From Bacteroidetes bacterium 43-93 (GTDB taxonomy: Bacteria > Bacteroidota > Bacteroidia > Chitinophagales > Chitinophagaceae), in NCBI GenBank assembly GCA_001897855.1, contig MKUO01000001.1, positions 434,001 through 498,000 of the forward strand: DNA of 64,000 nt, in the 5' to 3' direction. Within the stretch, counting starts at the first letter, position 1; each line of letters opens with the position of its first letter. This document shows, one piece after another, positions 1,882 through 61,969 of the stretch. A program made the translations under genes and the position numbers. The notes beneath the pieces were generated by a model. That model worked only from the letters and a program-made list of their open reading frames with translations, was not told where the DNA came from and did not search any database.

Positions 1882-4167
1882 TTAGTGCATAATGCAAACA
1901 GGGGAGGATGCCTGTGCATCTGTAGTTCTTACAATACAATAATAAGTACCTGACGCAATTCCCGATACGTCTATTTGCGCATTGGTCCTGCTGGCATCTA
2001 TTGCGCCATCATACATTTTTTGCCCGGTAACAGATATGAGCGTAATATGCACCTCACCATTTCCAATACTTGGCAGCCAGCTGATATTGATCATGTTATT
2101 GGCAGGGTTGGGGAAGATTTTTATATCTCCGTTTGCTAACTGCTGAGCACTTATAAAAGTTTTGTAATACTGTTTATATAACGCAAGGCCGCCCACCTCG
2201 TTTCCTACAATCATTTCATAGCTGCCATCACCATCAATATCACCAACTGTCGGGTGCGCACGATCCCTAACATAGATACTGCTGTATGCAGAATCTACCC
2301 GTATATATTTAACGTTGGTATTACCACTTTGAAAATTATCATATCGGTAGATCGTACCATTTTTGCTTCCTATTAAAAGGTAATCCTTGTTCGAATTATC
2401 GATCTTGCCAATATAGGGAACTGCATAGCTATAAATATCGCCTTTTGCAGCATAATCGTTGATGACGACACCACCCAAGGTATCTGTGATCAGGTTGAAA
2501 TTTACAGAACCTGAGCCTCCGGTATTTTTATAATAATACAATGTTGCGAGCTGGCATCCTACAACCAGGTCATTCTTCCCGTCTTTGTTAAGATCGTAAA
2601 TAAATGGTGCCGCATAACCACGAACTTTAGCGGTGCCCGACTGGTCTGTAACAGGTGTAGGATTTTGAAATATGGGCTGAGTATTACCGGTGGCCGCTGT
2701 ATTATGAAAATAGGTCATTGTGCCATCCGCTCTACCTATTACAAGATCATCTTTACCATCGCCGTCAAGATCGCCAAAGGCAAGAGAAGAGGATATCAGG
2801 TTGGCACTCGCCAGGTTAAGGAAATCACGCGATCTCATAGTAAAAGAAAGAGAGGTAGGAGAGGTACTGGTATTTTCAAAATAATAGATAGCTGCTTTAG
2901 TAACGCCTGTTGCAGGATCAGTAAATCCTTCGCTACCTAAGAAAAGATCGGGTTTGCCATCTTTGTTGTAATCGTAGAGTGTAGGTGCGGCACCTGCACC
3001 GGCATCAATTACGTCGGAAGTAAAAATAGTATCGGACTGATACACATAATTTGGATGCTGGGTGGTGCCCATATTACGGAAGTATTGCAGGCATCTTTTG
3101 GCGCCTACATTTGGCACGAATGGAGAAAATATGAGGTCTGTATGGGTATCATTATCTACATCTACCCAATAGGCCGCAGGTTGTAATGGCAGGTTTATGC
3201 CAACACCGTTTGAAGTCCAAATGGTATCTTCATAAATCATGCTATCCCTAACATAAGACAATTCATTTTTGCCGTTTTTTAAATATTGTATATCGGGGAA
3301 GGATACATTACCGTCCAGCATATCATAGTCGCCGTCGCCATCCATATCCAGCAGTGTCAGTGCATTGCCTGAGTGTGTTGTTTTTGCACCACTATTATCA
3401 CAACCCTTGCAGGTAGTACCTGTAGTGCCACAGTAAACGCCCATTCTTATATTGCGTTCATTAAACTGCGATGTTTTGCCCCAGCAAACATCCTTCAGGC
3501 AAATAGTAATACTGTCTTTAGGCAGCTTATCTTCTACCTGGCAATTCCTATAAAAGCAAATGCCTATTCCGTTTAGGTCGTACGATAGAAAATCAAGATC
3601 GCCGTCGCCATCTACGTCTGCCATAGCTGGCAGATCGTTGGGTGCCACATAGGCATTCACCATGCCCGATCCGCCTGTTAGATAATAGAGGCCACGGTAG
3701 CCGCTGAATGTTGTTGTAGGGTCAAAATGCAATATTGAGTCATCTCCATAGAAACCTCTCAGGGGTGTAATTCCCGAATATCCACGATATATAAGGTCTG
3801 GCGTTCCGTCTCTGTTATAGTCAGCAAATTTCAGATACCCGTTGATCACAGGAAAACTATTAGCATATTCTGCGTGATATACATAGTGTGGTTGGCCCTT
3901 TACCTTGCTGGTGTTAATCAAAACCTTTACACCACTGGCTGGTTCAAATATCACCATGTCCTGGATGCCGTCCTTATTGAAATCAACATTAGCAAATTGA
4001 GGGTTTCGTAATGCTCCCGCCCATGCGTAGGCAAGCTCTTTACCATTGTCATCGTAAACCAGAGGCGGCTTACCATAAGGGAGATAAAGCGTTTCGCCTG
4101 ATATTTGGGCAAATGAGTGATTTCCCGCTAGCAGGCATAAGGATAGGTACAGTAATTTCTTTTTCAT
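1882..4167 (-). CDS. FG-GAP/VCBS repeat protein with T9SS type A sorting domain
   Basis: 761 residues. An N-terminal signal peptide (KKLLYLSLCLLAGNHSFAQ) is followed by repeated DxDxDGxxD loops (DFNKDGIQDM, DVDGDGDLDF, DMDGDGDYDM, DYNKDGKPDL, DLDGDGKDDL, DLNKDGKNDL, DIDGDGSYEM), which in FG-GAP/VCBS proteins bind calcium within beta-propeller blades. A cysteine-bearing insert (CLKDVCWGK, TTCKGCDNSG) lies around residues 220-255. The last ~80 residues (IFPNPANNMINISW, then ISVTGQKMYDG and SGTYYCIVRT) are a typical type IX secretion C-terminal sorting domain, so the mature protein should be released or anchored outside the cell. It precedes its paralogue by only 12 bp, so the two are probably co-transcribed duplicates. 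Confidence 0.92.
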   Translation of the reverse strand: MKKKLLYLSLCLLAGNHSFAQISGETLYLPYGKPPLVYDDNGKELAYAWAGALRNPQFANVDFNKDGIQDMVIFEPASGVKVLINTSKVKGQPHYVYHAEYANSFPVINGYLKFADYNRDGTPDLIYRGYSGITPLRGFYGDDSILHFDPTTTFSGYRGLYYLTGGSGMVNAYVAPNDLPAMADVDGDGDLDFLSYDLNGIGICFYRNCQVEDKLPKDSITICLKDVCWGKTSQFNERNIRMGVYCGTTGTTCKGCDNSGAKTTHSGNALTLLDMDGDGDYDMLDGNVSFPDIQYLKNGKNELSYVRDSMIYEDTIWTSNGVGINLPLQPAAYWVDVDNDTHTDLIFSPFVPNVGAKRCLQYFRNMGTTQHPNYVYQSDTIFTSDVIDAGAGAAPTLYDYNKDGKPDLFLGSEGFTDPATGVTKAAIYYFENTSTSPTSLSFTMRSRDFLNLASANLISSSLAFGDLDGDGKDDLVIGRADGTMTYFHNTAATGNTQPIFQNPTPVTDQSGTAKVRGYAAPFIYDLNKDGKNDLVVGCQLATLYYYKNTGGSGSVNFNLITDTLGGVVINDYAAKGDIYSYAVPYIGKIDNSNKDYLLIGSKNGTIYRYDNFQSGNTNVKYIRVDSAYSSIYVRDRAHPTVGDIDGDGSYEMIVGNEVGGLALYKQYYKTFISAQQLANGDIKIFPNPANNMINISWLPSIGNGEVHITLISVTGQKMYDGAIDASRTNAQIDVSGIASGTYYCIVRTTDAQASSPVCIMH

Positions 4168-9648: not shown

Positions 9649-10566
9649 TTAAATGAATGATTGTTTAAATTCCAGTGGAGTTGTGTCAGTCTTCTTTTTG
9701 AAAATTTTATTGAATGATTGCGGATGCTCAAAACCCAATTGATAGGCGATTTCTGCCACTGTAAGCTCCGTTGTGGTCAGGTATTCTTTCGCTTTCTCTA
9801 TTAATTTTTCGTGAATATGCTGTTGCGCATTATGGCCGGTAAGGGAGCGTAACATATCACTTAAATACCGTGGTGAAAGATGAAGTTGGTTCGCCAGATA
9901 TTCAACCGTTGGGAGTCCTTTTGTCAACGATTCTTGTTTGTCAAAATACTCATTCAACAAATGTTCCATTTGAGTTATTAAATCATGGTTTACAGCCTTT
10001 CGCGTAATAAACTGTCGCTTATAAAAGCGGTTACCGTAATTAAGCAGCACTTCTATAAGCGATAAAACGACATCCTGGCTGAAATCATCTATGGTGCTGT
10101 GTAATTCATTGTTTATATTTTCAAAAATGGAAAGAATTACTTGCTTCTCCTTATCAGACAAAAACAAAGCCTCATTAGCCGAATAAGAAAAGAAACCGTA
10201 TTGTTTTATTTTTGTTGCTAATGGATAATTTCGGATAAAATCAGGGTGAATTAGCAGCGTATAGCCTGAATAGTCTTTTTCGTTTTCTCCTGCAGCAATC
10301 ACCTGATTAGGAGAAACGAACGATATGCCGCCTTCATCAAAATCGTAATAATGCTGTCCGTATTTTATTTTGCCTGTAAAATGAAATTTATAAGAAATTT
10401 TATAAAAATTCAAAAATAAGGCTTTCGGTAATTCATGAGCGGATACTTTGATTTCGGCATAATTTACCAAGCTAATCAACGGATGCAAAGGTTTAGGAAA
10501 GCCTAATGCCCTATGCAAGTCTGAAATGGAATTATATTTCTGTGGTGTATTTTCAGATGTTTTCAT
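9649..10566 (-). CDS. AraC family transcriptional regulator
   Basis: 305 residues. The N-terminal half is a cupin-like sensor region (FHFTGKIKYGQHYYDFDEGG). The C-terminal ~100 residues are the two helix-turn-helix motifs of AraC/XylS: VEYLANQLHLSPRYLSDMLR and LTVAEIAYQLGFEHPQSFNK followed by FKKKTDTTPLEF. Ligand unknown. It lies between the SDR gene upstream (128 bp gap) and the SnoaL-like gene downstream, so it is probably the local regulator of the SDR and SnoaL-like genes. A second, only distantly similar AraC gene lies at 13.5 kb. Confidence 0.92.
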   Translation of the reverse strand: MKTSENTPQKYNSISDLHRALGFPKPLHPLISLVNYAEIKVSAHELPKALFLNFYKISYKFHFTGKIKYGQHYYDFDEGGISFVSPNQVIAAGENEKDYSGYTLLIHPDFIRNYPLATKIKQYGFFSYSANEALFLSDKEKQVILSIFENINNELHSTIDDFSQDVVLSLIEVLLNYGNRFYKRQFITRKAVNHDLITQMEHLLNEYFDKQESLTKGLPTVEYLANQLHLSPRYLSDMLRSLTGHNAQQHIHEKLIEKAKEYLTTTELTVAEIAYQLGFEHPQSFNKIFKKKTDTTPLEFKQSFI

Positions 10567-10694: not shown

Positions 10695-11501
10695 TTAGAA
10701 AGAGAATATTTCCTGTATTTTTTTATACTGTCCTTCAGGACTGATATTTAATCGTTCGTTGTATAAAGCCTCTGCATCCGATCCGACAATATATCGTAAT
10801 TGGTTGTTATTGTCTGTTGCCGCTTTGAAAATAGCATTGGCTACCATTTCCGGTGTGGAATACCGCTTTATGCTTTCTTCGTTGTATCCTTCGCTTACTT
10901 TATCTATTAGCCCCTGATAGGCATCATATGTTGCTGTATCCATCGAGCGCCCGGAGAAATCAGTCTGGATACCACCCGGAGCGATAATTTTTACTTTAAC
11001 GCCGAAATGCGATAAATCGTAAGCCAGACTCTCAGAAAAACCGTCCAATGCAAATTTAGATGCGACATACATAGAGCACGTTGGATAGCCTATCATACCA
11101 AACATTGAAGTGATATTGATAAACATCCCTGTTTTCTTTTCACGGAAATAGGGAACAAAGGATTTTGTAACCCGGATAGGCCCCATTAAATTAGTTTCTA
11201 TTTGTCGGGTAATCTGCTCATCTGTGAAGGCTTCCAATGGTCCTATTAGTCCATAGCCGGCATTATTTAGTACTACATCTACAGAATGCTCCGAAATCGT
11301 CTTATTGACGACTTCCTTGATGTTTTTGGGGTTTGTCACATCTAACTCAAATAGTGTGATGTTATCAAGTTTTTTCAACTCCATTTCTTTATCAGGATAG
11401 CGCATAGTGGCAATAACATGCCAGCCTTTTGATTGGAATAGTATGACGGTTGCTTTCCCCAGCCCCGAAGAAGTTCCGGTAATAAAAATTGTTCTTTGCA
11501 T
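10695..11501 (-). CDS. SDR family oxidoreductase
   Basis: 268 residues, classical SDR: TGTSSGLG (8-15), NNAGYG around 79-84, catalytic Ser in NITSM, and YVASK with the Tyr/Lys pair. It is not closely similar to the SDR at 4.2 kb: the cofactor segment (ATMRYPDKE) and C-terminus differ. The Arg after the second strand suggests NADP(H). It is grouped with an AraC regulator and a SnoaL-like protein, an arrangement common for small accessory redox operons. Confidence 0.9.
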   Translation of the reverse strand: MQRTIFITGTSSGLGKATVILFQSKGWHVIATMRYPDKEMELKKLDNITLFELDVTNPKNIKEVVNKTISEHSVDVVLNNAGYGLIGPLEAFTDEQITRQIETNLMGPIRVTKSFVPYFREKKTGMFINITSMFGMIGYPTCSMYVASKFALDGFSESLAYDLSHFGVKVKIIAPGGIQTDFSGRSMDTATYDAYQGLIDKVSEGYNEESIKRYSTPEMVANAIFKAATDNNNQLRYIVGSDAEALYNERLNISPEGQYKKIQEIFSF

Positions 11502-36219: not shown

Positions 36220-36687
36220 TTATACTTTGAAGTGAGAGAACGCCTTGTTGGCTTCAGCCATACGGTGCGTATCTTCTTTCTTTTTGAAAGCGCCGCCTTC
36301 ACCCTTAGATGCAGCAACGATTTCGTTAGCCAGTTTATCAGCGATAGTACGACCATTACGTTCGCGGCTGTAACGGATCAGCCATTTCATGCTCAGGGAT
36401 ATTTTACGGTCAGGACGTACTTCAGCAGGGATCTGGAAAGTAGCACCACCAATACGGCGGCTACGAACCTCAACAGCCGGAGTAACGTTAGCCAAAGCGC
36501 GTTTCCACACTTCGTAACCATTTTCACCTGTCATCTGGCTCACTTTATCCAGTGCATCGTAGAATGCACTCAGAACCACAGTTTTGTTACCACCCCACAT
36601 CAGGCAGTTAACGAAACGTGTAACGTGTTTATCGTTGAATTTAGGATCTGGAGCTAAAGGGAGCTTTTTTGCTTGTGCCTTCCTCAT
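36220..36687 (-). CDS. rpsG: 30S ribosomal protein S7
   Basis: 155 residues. MRKAQAKKLPLAPDPKFNDK, then TRFVNCLMWGGNKTVVLSAFYDAL, VEVRSRRIGGATFQIPAEVRP and the basic C-terminal helix. Primary 16S-binding protein of the small-subunit head. It follows rpsL by 30 bp, as in the str operon. Unlike the usual order, fusA does not come next: a hairpin and a lipoprotein gene do. Confidence 0.97.
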   Translation of the reverse strand: MRKAQAKKLPLAPDPKFNDKHVTRFVNCLMWGGNKTVVLSAFYDALDKVSQMTGENGYEVWKRALANVTPAVEVRSRRIGGATFQIPAEVRPDRKISLSMKWLIRYSRERNGRTIADKLANEIVAASKGEGGAFKKKEDTHRMAEANKAFSHFKV

Positions 36688-36717
36688 GTTTGGCTATAAA
36701 TTACTTGAATGAATTAA

Positions 36718-37098
36718 TTATTTTTTAGCTTTTTCGCGTTTAGTACCGTATTTAGAGCGGCTTTGCTTACGGTCTTTTACACCCGCAGTATCCAGCGCAC
36801 CACGTACGATATGGTAACGTACACCCGGTAAGTCCTTCACACGACCACCGCGTATCAGCACGATAGAGTGCTCTTGCAGGTTGTGGCCTTCACCAGGGAT
36901 ATATGCGATAACTTCTACCTTATTGGTAAGACGCACTTTGGCAACTTTACGCAGGGCAGAGTTTGGTTTCTTTGGAGTAGTCGTGTACACACGTGTGCAA
37001 ACACCGCGGCGTTGAGGACAAGCATCCAAAGCACGAGACTTTGATTTTGCGCGTATTTGTGTACGACCTTTACGAACTAATTGCTGAATAGTAGGCAT
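36718..37098 (-). CDS. rpsL: 30S ribosomal protein S12
   Basis: 126 residues. [32 protein letters not shown] and [29 protein letters not shown], including the aspartate normally methylthiolated by RimO in VKDLPGV. Decoding-centre protein. The residues linked to streptomycin resistance (Lys in TPKKP and Lys in RVKDLP) have the wild-type form. Heads the rpsL-rpsG operon and has a strong promoter. Confidence 0.97.
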
Positions 37099-37174: not shown

Positions 37175-37606
37175 TTAATATCGGTTTTTTTCTTCCTCTT
37201 TTTTATCCGAACCATTCATATTGGTTGGGTTCAGGGTAATGGTATACAAAATATACATCATAAAATAGGGCACCGGGCTACCCAAAAACAGGCGGACTGA
37301 GCTTATTACATCCAGGAATCCGACGCCGAAAAGTTCCGTTTTCCATTGTATCAGCCCTATGATTCCTATAATAGATATGGTTAGCCCATAGCTATATACC
37401 CAAACTCGTTTAGGCCAAGGCAAAACTTGCTTTGCCCAGCCCCAATACCCGGCGGCGAGTATCAGTAATAGCACTATAAGATGCCCCAATTGCCTGATGA
37501 CAGCTGGAAAAAAATCAGCGTGTCCTTCGGTGAAATATTGATAATCGAGCCAGCTGAATAATATGATAATGGAAAAAGCCAGCCAGAAACGTAGCTTATG
37601 CCGCAT
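37175..37606 (-). CDS. exosortase-associated membrane protein
   Basis: 143 residues from ATG 37606 (MRHKLRFWLAF), whose first bases overlap the exosortase stop by 11 bp; the longer frame to 37729 is buried in the exosortase gene. Four hydrophobic helices (about 6-20, 38-57, 67-86, 101-125), and a Lys/Glu-rich cytosolic tail (GSDKKEEEKNRY). Bacteroidota exosortases of the XrtX kind are known to have a dedicated membrane partner of this size; I assign it by context and topology, not by a motif. Function unknown. Confidence 0.7.
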   Translation of the reverse strand: MRHKLRFWLAFSIIILFSWLDYQYFTEGHADFFPAVIRQLGHLIVLLLILAAGYWGWAKQVLPWPKRVWVYSYGLTISIIGIIGLIQWKTELFGVGFLDVISSVRLFLGSPVPYFMMYILYTITLNPTNMNGSDKKEEEKNRY

Positions 37607-38120
37607 TCCGGAAGGCATTTTTAGCATAAAGCACCCAACCATAAAATACCACACCGTAAATCGCCAGCTTGAATGCGTAATGGTGGGCAAAATCGGTAAG
37701 GTAATGGTGGGTATAAAACATTTCGGCAAGTACTGCGCAGCGAATTACATTGAGTATATATATCACAACGCTGCCGGCAAGGGAAAAAAGAAGCATCCTG
37801 CGCCAGTTGGTAGGTATGCACAGTATAAAGCCTATATACAGTACCATTAGCTCCAGGCCATTGCACTGCGGAGCGATAGTTACTGATTCAACACCGTTTA
37901 TGTAAACGCTGTTTCCTACCCAGGTAGCCTTTATAAAAAGATCCAGCAGCTTTGCGGTGCCATATTGTACTGCAGATGTCAATTGAGCATCCGGAATGCC
38001 GATAGGGCCCAGCCACAATTTGTAAAGCAGGTTCCAGCCAATAACTAATGCCAGGCCCTTTAAAATAAAAGGCCGGGCATTGTCTGGAATTACTTTATGT
38101 AAGGAGGCTGCTTTAGACAT
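37596..38120 (-). CDS. exosortase family transpeptidase-like protein (XrtX-like)
   Basis: 174 residues from ATG 38120, four bases after the substrate gene's stop; the longer frame to 38174 overlaps that gene. Multi-span membrane protein with the exosortase/archaeosortase triad: Cys86 in APQCNGLELM, Arg127 in NVIRCAVLAEMFYT, His146/147 in DFAHHYAFK. Such enzymes cut CTERM tails of exported proteins and may attach them to another molecule. The adjoining gene encodes a small CTERM-like protein, and a membrane partner follows. Bacteroidota form resembling XrtX; the exact subtype is inferred. Confidence 0.9.
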   Translation of the reverse strand: MSKAASLHKVIPDNARPFILKGLALVIGWNLLYKLWLGPIGIPDAQLTSAVQYGTAKLLDLFIKATWVGNSVYINGVESVTIAPQCNGLELMVLYIGFILCIPTNWRRMLLFSLAGSVVIYILNVIRCAVLAEMFYTHHYLTDFAHHYAFKLAIYGVVFYGWVLYAKNAFRNAA

Positions 38121-38124
38121 GCCT

Positions 38125-38325
38125 TTATTTTTCAGCATTTTTCTTTTTAGACTGGGCATAGCGCTTAATGCCATACCCCGCGCCTGCAGCTAGCAGAAGA
38201 CTTAATCCGCCATCCAAAGGTGCATTATTGGTAGGGGGCTTATAATTGTCCCAGTGTCCCCAGCCTGCAGAAGCTGCCAGAGGTAAGCTTAATGTGATGA
38301 TAAGTGCAAAGAGGATAGATTTCAT
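38125..38325 (-). CDS. tiny CTERM (PID-CTERM-like) exosortase substrate
   Basis: 66 residues. Signal peptide MKSILFALIITLSLPLAASA (cleavage after residue 20), then a 15-residue mature segment (GWGHWDNYKPPTNNA), then a sorting tail: PLDGG at 36-40, a short hydrophobic stretch LSLLLAAGAGYGI (41-53) and a basic end (KRYAQSKKKN). This is the layout of the Bacteroidota PID-CTERM motif, with Leu for Ile. Almost nothing is left once the tail is removed. First gene of the exosortase operon; it ends four bases before the exosortase start. Confidence 0.85.
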   Translation of the reverse strand: MKSILFALIITLSLPLAASAGWGHWDNYKPPTNNAPLDGGLSLLLAAGAGYGIKRYAQSKKKNAEK

Positions 38326-38451: not shown

Positions 38452-39780
38452 TTATTGCTTAGGGCCGGGCAATATCCATGGTTTATGCGTTAAGCTTTGC
38501 CAGGGTGTAGCGGCAAGATCAACCGAAGTATCAATTAAAGGCTGCGGAATCCGTCCGTTTAAACTCACTTCGCTGTTAACAAAAATCTTCACTTTCTGCC
38601 CCAATCCGGTATATAGTTTTTTTAGGTACTGCGCATACTGCCAGCATAGTTCCGGCGAACCGGGTATATCAATAGCCTGTCTTTCGGGCAATCTTTGTGC
38701 CGGCTGTTCTATGCGCATTTCCCTGGTTCTTATATTCACTATTTCAAAAAAGGCAAAGCCTCTTTTATCGCGCAGCATCATTCGCCAGGCCATTTTATGC
38801 CCTTCATCCGTCCAGGTGACATCGCCTTTTATGAAAAAATGCCGGATGGGCAGTATTAATTGAAGGAGTATATAAACAGATATTAACGAGATGATCATTT
38901 TCTGTTTTTGACCGGAGGTTTGCGCTGGCACACCTACAGTTTTTTCTTCCGGTAAAAAACTATCATAGAACGATGCAGGGAAGAAAAACAGGGTAGAGGA
39001 CAAAGCCATAAATGGGAAAATGCCTATCTGGAATATCTGCTGGTTGAAGAAGTTAAAGATCAAAGCAGCGATAAAGGCGGTGTTACGGGTGCGTTTAAAA
39101 CATAAGGCAGGTATTAATAATAGATCGAAGATGATTCCGAGCCAGGAGAATACGACAGGCGCCCATGATTGCCTTACGATATAGCCAAAGTAGAGATTAC
39201 CGGTCTCTTCAGCAAACCATAATTTCAACGGCAGTCCGTGCATCCAGTCCGGGTACAATTTTGCAATAGCTGCGAACACAAACACACAGCTTACCTGGAA
39301 CTGGAATAGAAAAGTACACCATCTGGGGCAGGTGTTTGATGCTATTGCTCTTCCTTGTTTCACATCCATTGACAATCGCCTGTTTGCGGGTGTCAGCGCC
39401 AGCATCCAGCAGAGCAGTACCATCAGGTAATAGTGATTATTATAATTGATCTGCTGCGCCAGGTAGAAGAAGGTCCATAATGTTGCCATTACTATGGATG
39501 AAATGCGGAAGTACAAACCCGCCGCCACGGCGAGCGCAGCAATAGCCATAACCGCTACGTAAAAAAACATAACCGGCCCGTGTAAAACCTGCAGCCATTC
39601 AAAACCAATAGCGGGAAAGAGCAGGGGTGGATCTACAAACGCTTCTTTAACACCTCCCGCAACTATTTGCATCAGGCATTCTACAAACATCATCAGTCCA
39701 AATAATATCCGGAATACAACGAGTGCGCCATTATCGGTTTCTTCAAATGCTTTGGTCCTGATGCTTGTGTTTTGACTCAT
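38452..39780 (-). CDS. HTTM (vitamin K-dependent gamma-carboxylase-like) membrane protein
   Basis: 442 residues. The N-terminal half is the HTTM domain with four paired hydrophobic segments: RILFGLMMFVECLMQIVAGG, HGPVMFFYVAVMAIAALAV, FYLAQQINYNNHYYLMVLL and FQFQVSCVFVFAAIAKLYP. The C-terminal ~150 residues are soluble (WRMMLRDKRGFAFFEIVN, HKPWILPGP). Bacterial HTTM proteins resemble eukaryotic gamma-glutamyl carboxylase but their reaction is mostly unknown. It lies 126 bp upstream of the exosortase operon on the same strand; partnership unproven. Confidence 0.87.
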   Translation of the reverse strand: MSQNTSIRTKAFEETDNGALVVFRILFGLMMFVECLMQIVAGGVKEAFVDPPLLFPAIGFEWLQVLHGPVMFFYVAVMAIAALAVAAGLYFRISSIVMATLWTFFYLAQQINYNNHYYLMVLLCWMLALTPANRRLSMDVKQGRAIASNTCPRWCTFLFQFQVSCVFVFAAIAKLYPDWMHGLPLKLWFAEETGNLYFGYIVRQSWAPVVFSWLGIIFDLLLIPALCFKRTRNTAFIAALIFNFFNQQIFQIGIFPFMALSSTLFFFPASFYDSFLPEEKTVGVPAQTSGQKQKMIISLISVYILLQLILPIRHFFIKGDVTWTDEGHKMAWRMMLRDKRGFAFFEIVNIRTREMRIEQPAQRLPERQAIDIPGSPELCWQYAQYLKKLYTGLGQKVKIFVNSEVSLNGRIPQPLIDTSVDLAATPWQSLTHKPWILPGPKQ

Positions 39781-55589: not shown

Positions 55590-57191
55590 ATGAAACTAAA
55601 CACATTTCTTGCCATTCCTATGGTATTGATAAGCATGTCTTCCGGATATGCGCAGTCTAACTCAGGCCTTATAGCCCATTGGCCATTCAATGGTAACGCT
55701 AACGATTCATCAGGCAACGGGCATACCGGCACAGCATATAATACTTCGTCAGGGACAGGAATAACGGGGAAACCCAATACAGCCTATTATTTTGATGGTT
55801 CGAGCAGTTATATTACAGTTCCTTACCAGTCAGATTTAAATATCACCCGTTACAGCTTGTGTGCTGTGGTCAAGCCGACTGGCTTTTATCCCGGCCTTTG
55901 CCAGGGTAATATCATTATGGAACGCGGCTGGGAATATTCTGCTGGCAATTATGAATTGGAGTTCACTGATAACCCATATAACGATTGTTATACTGATGAT
56001 TCTACGAAATATGTTTTTGCTTTAGCAACAGGAAATGTTACAAATAATGGCTCGATTAGTAACTGGCAATATTCACCGCAAATTGTCCGCGATAATTGGT
56101 ATGTCGTTGTCGGCACTTTTAATGGAACGGATACATTTAAAGTCTACATAAATGGGGTTCTCAAATCTGTCTATCCCGCGGCTGGCTCAATTGGTAGCTC
56201 TACTTATGGCATTAGCATTGGTGCTGGTATGATAAATAGTTCGTATCCATACTGGTATAAGGGATTTATTGATGATATACGAATCTATAACCGCGTTTTG
56301 GATGATTCTGAAATCAAACAATATGCCACGGGTATTTATCTGCCGGAGCCAGATACCGTTTGTCAAGGCAAATCTCTCTCAGTTATAACTAATCTTATTA
56401 ATGGAAATTTTGTTCAGGTGCCTGGCACCGTGTTCACTGCAGAGATATCTGATGCATCCGGCAGTTTTGCTTCACCTACCGTTATCGGTACTTATACAGT
56501 TGGTTCTGTAAGTACACCTAATGTCGTAACCATTCCTTGTACCGTATCTGCGTCTTTAGCTCCTGGTGTTTATAAGCTGCGTGTAAAAACTACAACACTG
56601 GCTATGACATCAGATCTGAGTGATTTGTATGTTTTTGCCGATTCTACGCCAACACTTGCCTTATCAAGTTCTGCGGGTACAACTGTTGCGCAGGGTACAA
56701 CTGTTGTTTTTACGGCCAATCCATCCAGTGCAGGAGCAAATCCGTCTTTCAAATGGTATAAAAATGGTGTATTGGTCGCGGGGCAGGCATCGGCCACGTA
56801 CACTGCTATAGCAGGCGTCGATTTTGTAAACGGAGATACGATAACTTCCTTTGTTAAGAGTTCTTTGCCATGCGCTACTGTCGATTCTGCAATAGATAAA
56901 ATAATAATGAATGTAACGCTTGGCGTTAAAAATGTGACGCCCGATTGCAACATTCGTATATCACCTAATCCTAGTAATGGCAGCTTCCTGCTAAAGGGTT
57001 ATGTAAATGCAAATGATGTTAAAATGAACATTGTAAATGAATTGGGACAGGTTATTTATTCTCAAAACATAAATGTTGTCAATAATGTATTAGTGAGTGA
57101 GGTGAAACTTGATAATGTGAGGAGCGGAGTATATTTCGTTAGGTTACAAGCTGAAGGCATTTCACAAATTGCCCGCTTAATCATTCAATAG
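55590..57191 (+). CDS. LamG domain protein with T9SS sorting domain
   Basis: 533 residues. Signal peptide MKLNTFLAIPMVLISMSSGYA. A LamG/concanavalin-like domain (about 25-250: ALIAHWPFNGNANDSSGNGH, then DDIRIYNRVLDDSEI) is followed by Ig-like modules rich in Thr/Ser (about 255-450). The type IX C-terminal sorting domain (about 455-533: ISPNPSNGSFLLKG, VNELGQVIYSQN, SGVYFVRLQ) completes it. It is probably a surface-attached carbohydrate- or adhesion-related protein. No catalytic residues seen. Monocistronic. Confidence 0.93.
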   Translation: MKLNTFLAIPMVLISMSSGYAQSNSGLIAHWPFNGNANDSSGNGHTGTAYNTSSGTGITGKPNTAYYFDGSSSYITVPYQSDLNITRYSLCAVVKPTGFYPGLCQGNIIMERGWEYSAGNYELEFTDNPYNDCYTDDSTKYVFALATGNVTNNGSISNWQYSPQIVRDNWYVVVGTFNGTDTFKVYINGVLKSVYPAAGSIGSSTYGISIGAGMINSSYPYWYKGFIDDIRIYNRVLDDSEIKQYATGIYLPEPDTVCQGKSLSVITNLINGNFVQVPGTVFTAEISDASGSFASPTVIGTYTVGSVSTPNVVTIPCTVSASLAPGVYKLRVKTTTLAMTSDLSDLYVFADSTPTLALSSSAGTTVAQGTTVVFTANPSSAGANPSFKWYKNGVLVAGQASATYTAIAGVDFVNGDTITSFVKSSLPCATVDSAIDKIIMNVTLGVKNVTPDCNIRISPNPSNGSFLLKGYVNANDVKMNIVNELGQVIYSQNINVVNNVLVSEVKLDNVRSGVYFVRLQAEGISQIARLIIQ

Positions 57192-59048: not shown

Positions 59049-59071
59049 GATAATGATGATTATCATGTTTG
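59049..59071 (+). promoter_or_regulatory. Fur/PerR-like palindrome over the peroxidase promoter
   Basis: GATAATGATGATTATC (59049-59064) is an inverted repeat, GATAAT / ATTATC with a 4-base centre, and matches the classical Fur box at about 14 of 19 positions. It abuts CATGTTTG (59064-59071), one mismatch from the TAnnTTTG -7 box and 30 bases before ATG 59102. A metal- or peroxide-responsive repressor could act here. Confidence 0.5.
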
Positions 59072-59101
59072 ATAGCAACTAATTTATTAACTTTATATAC
59101 A

Positions 59102-60169
59102 ATGAAAAGTGCTCGCAAAAAGTCCTATTTACTAATACTATTGGCAACAATTGGTATTGTTGTATCCTGTAAGAAAACCAATACTAACAATGGCAACGAT
59201 GGCGGAGGAAATTCCGGTTGCTCTGTTGTGGAGATGAAGCCGTATGTATGGACCAATCCCTCGCGTTTCCCTTTAGCGAATATCCCGTCTGATAACCAGT
59301 TTACAGAAGAACGTATTGCTTTAGGTAAGCAATTGTATTACGATGCCCGCCTGTCAAATAACGGAGAATCGTGCAATAGCTGTCATAAGCAGAATATGGG
59401 TTTTGCAGGCGATAGCGTTTCTACTTTTGACAATGGCCTTTCCAAACCGCCATTGGTAAACCTCGCCTGGTATAATATATTCATGTGGACGGGCAGGCTA
59501 CAGGGCACTTTGGAAGATGTGATGTTTGCTGAGATCACTAAACGTTTCAATACCGACATAGGTAAGATCAATGCTATCCAGGATTATCGCGATAAGTTTT
59601 GTAAGTATTATGGTGTAAGCAATATCACAGCACAAGACTTGGCCAAGCCACTTGCACAGTTTATGCGGGTGCTGACATCAAGTAATAGTAAGTATGATAA
59701 ATTTGTAAGAGGCGAGAGTGGCTTGACTGATTATGAAATGAAAGGATATGATATCTTTTTCAGTGAAAAAGGAGATTGTTTTCACTGTCATGCTGCCGTG
59801 GTGCTCACCGACGATATGATGCACAATAATGGTATTGACAGCGTTTACGCAAAAGATATAGATAAAGGCTATTACAATGTAACGCATAGTGAGTACGACC
59901 TGGGTAAGTTTAAAACACCTAACCTCAGGAATGTGGCATTACGTACAGAGTTTATGCACGATGGCCGTTTTAAAACTTTGATGGATGTAGTTAATTTTTA
60001 CGATCATGGTGTGCATATAGGAGTTCCTTCTATCGACCCCATTATGACTAAACCAGCCAAGTTAAACGGCGGGCTGCATCTAACAGACGAAGAGAAGGCA
60101 CAACTGATCGCTTTCCTGAATACATTTACAGATACTACAATGACCAATAACCCATTCTTCAAACAATAG
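59102..60169 (+). CDS. diheme cytochrome c peroxidase/MauG family lipoprotein
   Basis: 355 residues from ATG 59102; a start at 59069 adds 11 residues before the lipoprotein signal. Lipobox GIVVSC (Cys23) followed by KK. Two heme c sites: CNSCH (91-95) and CFHCH near 225. The segment FKTPNLRNVALRTEFMHDGRF is the family core. It reduces hydrogen peroxide or oxidises a protein partner in the periplasm. Tail-to-tail with its paralogue, with only 2 bp between stops. A Fur/PerR-like palindrome lies upstream. Confidence 0.93.
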   Translation: MKSARKKSYLLILLATIGIVVSCKKTNTNNGNDGGGNSGCSVVEMKPYVWTNPSRFPLANIPSDNQFTEERIALGKQLYYDARLSNNGESCNSCHKQNMGFAGDSVSTFDNGLSKPPLVNLAWYNIFMWTGRLQGTLEDVMFAEITKRFNTDIGKINAIQDYRDKFCKYYGVSNITAQDLAKPLAQFMRVLTSSNSKYDKFVRGESGLTDYEMKGYDIFFSEKGDCFHCHAAVVLTDDMMHNNGIDSVYAKDIDKGYYNVTHSEYDLGKFKTPNLRNVALRTEFMHDGRFKTLMDVVNFYDHGVHIGVPSIDPIMTKPAKLNGGLHLTDEEKAQLIAFLNTFTDTTMTNNPFFKQ

Positions 60170-60171
60170 GG

Positions 60172-61203
60172 TTATTGTTTATAATTGCTGTTATTAATTA
60201 ACGTACTGTCGGTAAGGGTATGAAGAAAGGCTATCACCTTACTTTGTTCCTCATTAGTAAGCGCCAATCCCGGCTTGCCGTTTTTAATTAATTTATCTGA
60301 TAAGGTAGCAGAAGATGTTATTCCCGAAGCATAATGCTTCAATACTTCATTAAGTGTGGCAAATCGCCCGTCGTGCATATATGGATAAGTAACCACCACA
60401 TTCCTAAGTGTAGGTACTTTAAATTTACCCATATCAGCAGCGTTTTGCGTCACGCGATAGCGGCCGGAATCGGCAAACGTCGTATCAAGCCCATTATTCT
60501 GAAAGCTATAATCAGTAAACAATGGCTCTTTATGGCAGGATGCACAATTGGTTTTAAATAATGCGTAACCTTCTTGCTCATCCTGTGTAAACTTATCTTC
60601 ACCGGCCACTACACGATCATATTTGGAATGTGCAGATACCAGGTTGCTCATATATTGTGCAAGCGCCCAAAACATCTGCTGGTCATTGATGCTATCTCTA
60701 TGGAAAATATTTTTGAAAAGGGTGGGGTATTCAGGTGCACGGTTCAGTTTATAAATAATATGCTTTATGGTTTCCCCCATTTCTGCAGGATTGGTAAGTG
60801 GAGCCAGTGGCATTACTTCCAGGTTATTAACGCCGCCATCCCACATAAAACTGGCATTCCATGCCATGTTGAATATAGCCGGTGCATTCCTTTTACCGGT
60901 TTGGCCATCAATACCCTTGCTAAGAGATAGGCCACCGTCAGAAAAAGCAAATTCCTGTTTATGGCAGCTGGCGCACGATACCGTATTGTTTACGGATAGG
61001 AGCGGGTCATGAAATAATTTGCGCCCAAGTTCAAACCCTGCATTGCTGTAAGTATTAGGATCGTGCCTGTAGTAGGCAGCCGGAAAAGAAGCCGGCCTTT
61101 CAGGAGCATCCGCAGGTGGCATTGTGGTAATGCTTTCTTCCCGCTTTTTACATGCTACTAAAAGGCCGCTCCATAAAATAATATAAAGAATGCGCTTGCG
61201 CAT
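60172..61203 (-). CDS. diheme peroxidase, MbnH-like partner of MbnP
   Basis: 343 residues from ATG 61203 (one base after the MbnP stop region); the frame to 61239 overlaps mbnP. Lipobox GLLVAC (Cys18). Heme sites CASCH (77-81) and NCASCH near 215, then GKFKVPTLRNVVVTYPYMHDGRF. Adjacency to an MbnP-type gene marks it as the MbnH type of diheme enzyme, which in methanotroph relatives oxidises a Trp of MbnP to kynurenine. Homologous to the peroxidase facing it. Confidence 0.9.
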   Translation of the reverse strand: MRKRILYIILWSGLLVACKKREESITTMPPADAPERPASFPAAYYRHDPNTYSNAGFELGRKLFHDPLLSVNNTVSCASCHKQEFAFSDGGLSLSKGIDGQTGKRNAPAIFNMAWNASFMWDGGVNNLEVMPLAPLTNPAEMGETIKHIIYKLNRAPEYPTLFKNIFHRDSINDQQMFWALAQYMSNLVSAHSKYDRVVAGEDKFTQDEQEGYALFKTNCASCHKEPLFTDYSFQNNGLDTTFADSGRYRVTQNAADMGKFKVPTLRNVVVTYPYMHDGRFATLNEVLKHYASGITSSATLSDKLIKNGKPGLALTNEEQSKVIAFLHTLTDSTLINNSNYKQ

Positions 61204-61204
61204 A

Positions 61205-61969
61205 TTACTTGCTAACAGCGGAAAGGTATATACCACCATAGAACCCTTTTGCCATAGCTAACGCGTAGGCGCCGGGCATGTGTATTACACTGTTGACTTT
61301 AACACTTGGTGCATTGTCCCACAGGTCCGACGGATTGGTAACCATCGTTATGGTTGGGTTAGCACCATTGCCAATTTGCACAGTCTTGCCAAATTCTGCG
61401 GTATTTACGGTTACTACATTGTATTGTCCGCTAAAACCACCCATGTGCAGTGCGAATGAACCTGTCGGGCTATTGGGTGATCGTCCTTCAGCTTTCATCA
61501 TAATGTAGCCGCTGTTCCAATCCCAGAACATACCGTTTTGTAACGACAACGCTCCTGTTTGTGCCCCCGATACATTGTGCAGGCTATCCACACCCATAGT
61601 GTATTGAACCGCAGTATAATTCATAAAAGGTACATCAGGAATAGTAATGGTTGATGCTTCGGCAGATTGAGCATCCAGTAAGAAATAGCTGTCAGGCATC
61701 GACCACCATACTCCGTCTGCCCTTTTTAGTTTAATGTTAGAGACATAGTATCTTATATTGGTAAATATCAAGGTATCGCCTGTCTTTTCCTGTACCACCT
61801 TCTGTTCCAGCGCCAGCGGTGTTTCATTTTTACCCCAAACATAGGTAAACTGCATTTTTACAGTACCGTTGGCTGGCGTCCATACAGTGGGGCTTTTTTC
61901 GCAAGATGAAAACATAGCGCCTATTGCTGCTATCGATAACAGGGTCAGTGTGTATATAGCTTTTTTCAT
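61205..61969 (-). CDS. MbnP family copper-binding lipoprotein
   Basis: 254 residues. Lipobox GAMFSSC (Cys23). The beta-rich body has TNIRYYVSNIKLKRADG, TMGVDSLHNVSGA, and the family core NGMFWDWNSGYIMMKAEG with Trp149 and Trp151; later His residues (FALHMGG, SVIHMPGAYALAMAKGFYGG) could bind metal. In characterised MbnPs a Trp becomes kynurenine through the MbnH partner and this allows copper binding. Which Trp would be modified here is inference. Co-transcribed with the diheme enzyme. Confidence 0.9.
   Translation of the reverse strand: MKKAIYTLTLLSIAAIGAMFSSCEKSPTVWTPANGTVKMQFTYVWGKNETPLALEQKVVQEKTGDTLIFTNIRYYVSNIKLKRADGVWWSMPDSYFLLDAQSAEASTITIPDVPFMNYTAVQYTMGVDSLHNVSGAQTGALSLQNGMFWDWNSGYIMMKAEGRSPNSPTGSFALHMGGFSGQYNVVTVNTAEFGKTVQIGNGANPTITMVTNPSDLWDNAPSVKVNSVIHMPGAYALAMAKGFYGGIYLSAVSK

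Follow-up and report, generated by a model that had tools for sequence, protein, structure and literature searches.

A compact exosortase module with one mini-substrate that probably yields a short capped peptide, in a family whose tiny genes in relatives commonly follow T9SS cargo genes

The window, a 64,000-nucleotide stretch from Bacteroidetes bacterium 43-93, carries what is probably a complete exosortase module with one dedicated mini-substrate, which would clip and cap a short secreted peptide serving T9SS-delivered surface proteins; we favour this reading with reasonable, though limited, confidence. The three adjacent genes on the minus strand (Table 1) match the original prediction in coordinates and sizes, as do the 4-bp gap between the small gene and the exosortase gene and the 11-bp overlap of the latter with the membrane-protein gene. 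This spacing supports joint expression of all three genes, as had been proposed. A search for a Bacteroidetes-type promoter in front of the small gene returned one-mismatch matches only. The module had been described as a closed unit; across the wider family the tiny gene is linked with genes for T9SS cargo, a link not seen in the window.

Table 1 Genes of the exosortase module in the window and PLEGA-type tiny genes in related loci
Feature	Position	Strand	Evidence
PID-CTERM small secreted protein, 66 aa, presumed exosortase substrate	38125-38325	-	NF046080 match, dN/dS, L062 orthologue
Exosortase, 174 aa, C86/R127/H146, unnamed clade next to XrtX	37596-38120	-	TIGR04178 and PF09721 matches
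Membrane partner of the exosortase, 143 aa; R-x5-P motif (R105, P111), C-terminal	37175-37606	-	Position directly 3' of exosortase
PLEGA-type tiny genes	L065:10318-10584, L066:14944-15210, L067:9088-9381, L068:9968-10270, L069:9754-9981		

The small protein consists of MKSILFALIITLSLPLAASA, GWGHWDNYKPPTNNA, PLDGG, LSLLLAAGAGYGI and KRYAQSKKKNAEK, i.e., a signal peptide ending in A-S-A, a stretch of ~15 residues (GWGHWDNYKPPTNNA), the PLDGG motif, 13 hydrophobic residues and a basic end, with signal peptide and tail judged from sequence and hydropathy. It passes the NCBIfam model NF046080 (PID_CTERM; 40.9 bits against a cut-off of 26), and the predicted 66-residue secreted protein with its motif, hydrophobic stretch and basic tail was confirmed; the remainder of ~15 residues left after both predicted cuts likewise follows from the sequence. 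In the nearest relative found, locus L062 of genome G014, the orthologue is 94% identical. Because dN/dS against L062 is low (0.045), the small gene is real and constrained, a genuine protein gene under strong purifying selection.

For the module as a whole we propose the following route. The genes, their motifs, selection, the conserved pair of exosortase and partner, the co-occurrence with PID-CTERM proteins and the T9SS pairing in relatives are observed; cleavage at either end, capping, what the partner does and the T9SS function are inferred. Sec would export the 66-residue protein, signal peptidase I would remove the first ~20 residues at the presumed A-S-A site, and the C-terminal helix would keep the remainder in the inner membrane. 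The exosortase (with Cys86 as putative nucleophile, Arg127 and His146), together with its presumably four-helix partner, would then cut at the PLDGG region and pass the new C-terminus to an acceptor, by analogy with the chemistry of the exosortase/archaeosortase family. This would leave a capped peptide of ~15–20 residues, which, judging from the gene pairing in relatives, would most likely help T9SS-delivered proteins to be displayed or retained at the surface; with no adjacent cargo gene in the window genome, the peptide would act there in trans. We give little credence to a more far-reaching version, in which capped mini-peptides are dedicated T9SS accessories that, once tagged at the C-terminus in the inner membrane, anchor, retain or are joined to the large cargo encoded just upstream, an exosortase in the inner membrane and the T9SS sortase of the outer membrane thus working one after the other, and the window holds a stripped-down, in-trans version with one peptide.

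The T9SS component of the proposal derives from the relatives. From 105 tiny-gene candidates we retained 98 PID-CTERM genes at E ≤ 1e-6 (78 loci; the seven with higher E values were left out), 81 of which entered the comparison, as for 16 no frame of ≥100 aa lay upstream on the same strand near enough to fall inside the distance limit, and the sequence of L175 was masked; one counted candidate, at L083:3119, has a degraded motif. The gene directly upstream carried the T9SS sorting domain TIGR04183 (E ≤ 0.01) in 65 of these 81 cases, many of them paralogues within the genus, versus 6/81 control genes of the same loci (Fisher p = 2e-22), the controls being the first 81 scanned of 148 drawn at random from 331 other frames of ≥250 aa. 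Upstream neighbours of ≥400 aa were separated from the tiny gene by a median of 36 bp. Across four whole genomes with few T9SS genes (95 TIGR04183 matches in all), 15 of the 17 PID-CTERM genes listed, out of 19 matches, lay ≤700 bp downstream of a TIGR04183 match on the same strand, with 0.05 expected. One of the two unpaired genes (G146:C16) lies at a contig start and the other (G103:C2) follows a gene without a detected domain. The order cargo, tiny gene, exosortase, partner was found in L079, L080, L128 and L131 (cargo tails of the last two judged by eye), and cargo, tiny gene, exosortase in L094. As a separate observation, L082, L083, L085, L089 and L090 contain repeated cassettes, several per genome, in which a large T9SS-type protein is followed ~30 bp later by a near-identical tiny PID-CTERM gene (QGPGFDDDVVDEV).

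The tiny gene of the window itself has no T9SS gene adjacent, and in the orthologous rpsL loci of the genus the exosortase-adjacent tiny genes mostly follow a cysteine desulfurase. Because the window copy does not adjoin a T9SS gene, its T9SS link is drawn from the family. This leaves room for an alternative that we regard as a real, if minor, possibility, namely that the capped peptide stands alone, with a function in matrix, adhesion or signalling, and that its T9SS neighbourhood in relatives reflects the hitchhiking of duplicated cassettes. It would accommodate the window genome, which has at least 150 TIGR04183 matches and yet one PID-CTERM gene that adjoins none of them, as well as the difference in type between the substrates of the genus rpsL loci, whose mature stretches are in many cases Cys-rich (e.g., HTTWCYSKYGWGCNCGGGG), and the cargo-paired substrates of type QGPGFDDDVVDEV. 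Hitchhiking is harder to square with a pairing that is seen across genera and with both exosortase types at so short a median gap, that recurs in T9SS-poor genomes (4/4 in G089 and 7/7 of those listed in G174) and that includes the full cargo-to-exosortase orders given above. Elsewhere in the window, two large secreted proteins with T9SS-like ends (by eye) are encoded at 1882-4167 (minus strand) and 55590-57191 (plus strand), and no tiny PID-CTERM gene was found beside them.

The size of the substrate had been presented as a special feature of the module. A size survey led us to reject this notion: small substrates are usual in the family. The 98 genes have a median frame of 70.5 aa, with 96 of them ≤120 aa, and the stretch between the predicted signal cleavage and PxDGG has a median of 13 residues in 85 distinct proteins (quartiles 11 and 18, range 7-133; sites assigned by a simple rule of our own with a Gln bonus, a few long values being wrong sites). 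The 15-residue mature stretch of the window is typical for the family. Exceptions to tininess occur in L073, where two PID-CTERM proteins (9712-10131 and 10797-11363) have long Gly/Asn-rich mature stretches of 84 and 133 residues and their genes adjoin two exosortase copies.

A substrate consisting almost wholly of signal and tail might instead remain uncut or half-cut, as a two-helix membrane hairpin that is neither cargo nor hormone and acts as adaptor or regulator of exosortase and partner, with the PLDGG tail as a docking signal only. The stronger conservation of the C-terminal tail relative to the mature stretch would suit such a hairpin, as would the existence of mature stretches of 7–9 residues, too short for most functions, and the adjacency of tiny gene, exosortase and partner. 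We nevertheless consider it unlikely: the up to 12 copies found far from the exosortase do not suit an enzyme subunit, and Gln is the first mature residue, after AxA-type signal sites, in 56/85 proteins (a count inflated by the Gln bonus in the scoring), which fits the 'Q-rule' described for signal peptidase I products of Bacteroidetes (PMC5837995). In addition, because the motif PGFxxx[VT] recurs in 30 of 88 distinct mature stretches, the mature part is not a mere spacer. Clipping to a short peptide remains our preferred reading.

Two further kinds of tiny gene came to light in the relatives. One is a second tiny gene beside the exosortase; its motif reads PLEGA instead of PLDGG, its mature stretch is rich in Cys, and it scores poorly with the PID-CTERM model (Table 1). 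The other, in L065-L069 (e.g., L065:7976-8173), is of type FGPGFDPDV, has PIDEG in some copies and adjoins a T9SS-type protein of ~1000 aa beyond rpsL-rpsG.

The claim of a single dedicated substrate holds for the window genome (98.84% complete), in which a search at E ≤ 1 returned one PID-CTERM match over the cut-off, next to a weak second one below it (E = 0.36, within a 648-aa frame), and in which one exosortase was found (TIGR04178 at E ≤ 1; P0002 at E ≤ 0.01). It is not a special trait, as 3 of 15 genus genomes (G000, G005 and G014) have exactly one PID-CTERM match over the cut-off. The highest number among the 15 is 12, in G002; 14 combine an exosortase relative with PID-CTERM over the cut-off and G011 has neither. 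Several other CTERM proteins in the genome, which had been named as grounds for refutation, were not seen over the cut-off in the window genome but are present in many relatives, where the tail serves many proteins, all the same tiny. Of 147 family genomes, 46 carry both exosortase (profile A1, E ≤ 1e-5) and PID-CTERM (E ≤ 1e-3), 3 have the exosortase by itself, 4 have PID-CTERM by itself and 94 have neither, a strong co-occurrence of the kind anticipated; its p value of 1e-29 overstates independence, because the genomes are related. Exosortase and partner without a detected PID-CTERM protein were present in G019 and G141.

In the exosortase/archaeosortase family, Cys, Arg and His are the defining catalytic residues. 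The predicted exosortase with Cys86, Arg127 and His146 was upheld: it passes TIGR04178 (51.1 against 23 bits) and Pfam PF09721 (29.3 against 25.7 bits), and C86, N87, R127, H146 and H147 are invariant in 20 aligned relatives. Its dN/dS against L062 is 0.019. Translation from another ATG in the same frame, at 38174, would yield an exosortase of 192 aa whose gene overlaps the small gene; the 174-aa start appears preferable, as it better fits the aligned length. Among named families, XrtX (NF046081) scores best at 124.5 bits, below its cut-off of 170, which was passed in two genomes among 59 relatives, and XrtF (TIGR04128) follows with 69 bits, below a cut-off of 90. Membership in either family was rejected on these grounds, and the enzyme belongs to a sister clade of XrtX. 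The term XrtX-like is apt as a statement of resemblance and not of membership. Solved structures compared with the exosortase profile gave one chance-level match (E = 0.21).

The 143-aa membrane protein has no NCBIfam match at E ≤ 1 and sub-threshold noise only in Pfam. Seventeen aligned partners likewise returned scattered single NCBIfam matches at E ≤ 1 (best E = 0.0048), none of them common and TIGR04127 absent. Even so, a profile of the partner matched 36 places at E ≤ 1e-5 among 147 genomes, of which 35 lie directly 3' of a window-clade exosortase, the distance between match ends ranging from −5 to +58 bp; 8 of 44 matches fell above this threshold and were left out, including one (G084:C82) that also adjoins an exosortase. 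Conversely, 37 of 42 window-clade exosortases in the loci examined have the partner directly behind, and none was found in L072, L074, L075, L076 and behind one of the two in L073; upon inspection of 14 of 32 named loci, 13 had the partner directly behind the exosortase. P111 is invariant in 37 sequences. As to topology, the four helices predicted originally are plausible, but hydropathy (19-residue window, 1.4) shows three segments. Compared with the exosortase gene that it overlaps, the partner gene shows a much higher rate of evolution (dN/dS 0.177 versus 0.019 against L062), with 82% versus 99% identity to L062.

Behind XrtX-type (L095, L096) and XrtF-type exosortases, the same position is taken by a small membrane protein of another kind, an observation that is circular for the XrtF-type loci, which were fetched by their membrane protein; behind XrtY-like exosortases in the loci examined, no small membrane protein was found. 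By profile comparison, the XrtX-type partner (A6) looks clearly related to TIGR04127 (hhalign probability 97.5 against the TIGR04127 set). For the window type, kinship with either appears doubtful: A6 against the P0003 type gave hhalign probabilities of 2.1 and 7.9, and an A6 profile search picked up a single P0003-type partner at 4e-5, further ones scoring no better than 0.09 and standing among unrelated ORFs. Set against TIGR04127 itself, the window partner gave hhalign E values of 0.15 and 0.27 (17, then 37 sequences), which do not relate it to that family, and membership in TIGR04127 was rejected; together with a combined A5 and A6 profile, these comparisons are at most suggestive of a distant relationship. 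Descent from a degenerate exosortase copy was rejected (hhalign E = 0.49). Without an NCBIfam model, the partner offers annotators a new, well-defined family.

The surroundings of the module are partly shared with its relatives. It lies directly upstream of rpsL-rpsG (36220-37098, minus strand) on the same strand, an order also present in the genus loci L062, L064, L065-L069 and L071. On its other side, at 38452-39780 (minus strand) and 126 bp upstream of the small gene, lies a gene for a protein of 442 aa in which Pfam recognises an HTTM domain (E = 1e-68) and a vitamin K-dependent gamma-carboxylase lumenal domain (E = 7e-42), and the window and L062 have in common the order of this gene and the small gene. 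A role for it in making modified Glu in the peptide was dropped, since the mature stretch has no Glu, and we also rejected it as a part of the module, since among the other loci it stands beside the tiny gene in the nearest relative L062 only. Farther away, two neighbouring genes that converge on each other, at 59069-60169 (plus strand) and 60172-61239 (minus strand), encode di-heme proteins of the cytochrome c peroxidase/MauG-like kind, with CxxCH motifs recognised by eye.

The module is of a known kind, since NCBI already has named families for PID-CTERM and the exosortases that go with it (PID-CTERM, XrtX and XrtY being NCBIfam models). Literature searches for PID-CTERM, XrtX, XrtY, NF046080 and NF046081 found no paper, and searches that combined exosortases with either T9SS or small proteins of Bacteroidota gave no description of the pairing, both being weak absences with subscription papers and preprints outside their scope. 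Within that scope, we found no description of the exosortase clade that is sister to XrtX and scores under its cut-off, of the partner lacking a model, or of the tiny gene usually following T9SS cargo in relatives. That the locus is an ordinary PID-CTERM/exosortase locus as catalogued by NCBI, with nothing more to explain, agrees with the existence and matching of NF046080 and NF046081 and is improbable given an exosortase below the XrtX cut-off, a partner with no model and a literature in which neither a PID-CTERM/XrtX paper nor the T9SS pairing was found. Of the two points that had seemed most striking at the outset, tininess is usual and singleness local; the findings of greater interest come from the relatives.

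In Flavobacterium johnsoniae, deletion mutants of xrtF or of the partner gene next to it colonised sand less well, formed less biofilm and made no zorbs (PMC10936215). These mutants share a table row with porU and porZ mutants; because two unrelated mutants, 0334 and 0651, stand in that row too, the phenotype is not specific (PMC10936215). The exosortase substrates were not known to the authors, and the purpose of exosortases in Bacteroidota and their substrates in species such as F. johnsoniae is there an open question (PMC10936215). A shared sugar chemistry of exosortase and T9SS systems via VimA relatives has been offered as speculation (PMC7468200). In this context, a substrate with little besides signal and tail provides a clean route to the acceptor, with a product small enough for direct mass spectrometry. 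The strong pairing with T9SS cargo, in turn, suggests a testable link between two sorting systems that are treated apart in the papers searched, a search whose scope excluded subscription papers and preprints.

Compared with known systems, the small protein is a PID-CTERM member by the curated cut-off (NF046080), with size and architecture as in most listed members. It differs in having a mature stretch without the PGF motif and without the cysteines found in many relatives, and in being the sole copy detected in its genome. With XrtX (NF046081) the module shares PID-CTERM partner proteins and a small membrane protein behind the exosortase, yet its partner is of a different sequence type (A7/P0003, as against the A6 type behind the exosortases of L095 and L096). 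XrtF and its associated protein (TIGR04128/TIGR04127; Fjoh_1448-1449) likewise comprise an exosortase with a small multi-helix membrane protein directly behind it, although XrtF represents a different clade from the window exosortase. The PEP-CTERM/EpsH system has in common with the module a signal peptide, a sorting tail made up of a short motif, hydrophobic stretch and basic end, and an exosortase fold family; in contrast, the window substrate is almost free of cargo and, unlike in PEP-CTERM/EpsH, no exopolysaccharide cluster lies beside the module, the neighbours at the locus being rpsL/rpsG and a cysteine desulfurase. In relation to T9SS, PID-CTERM genes of relatives usually have a cargo gene as their upstream neighbour, whereas the window module does not adjoin a cargo gene. 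Finally, T9SS type A cargo and its sortase PorU employ a different enzyme and a different signal, and likewise act on surface proteins in the same phylum.
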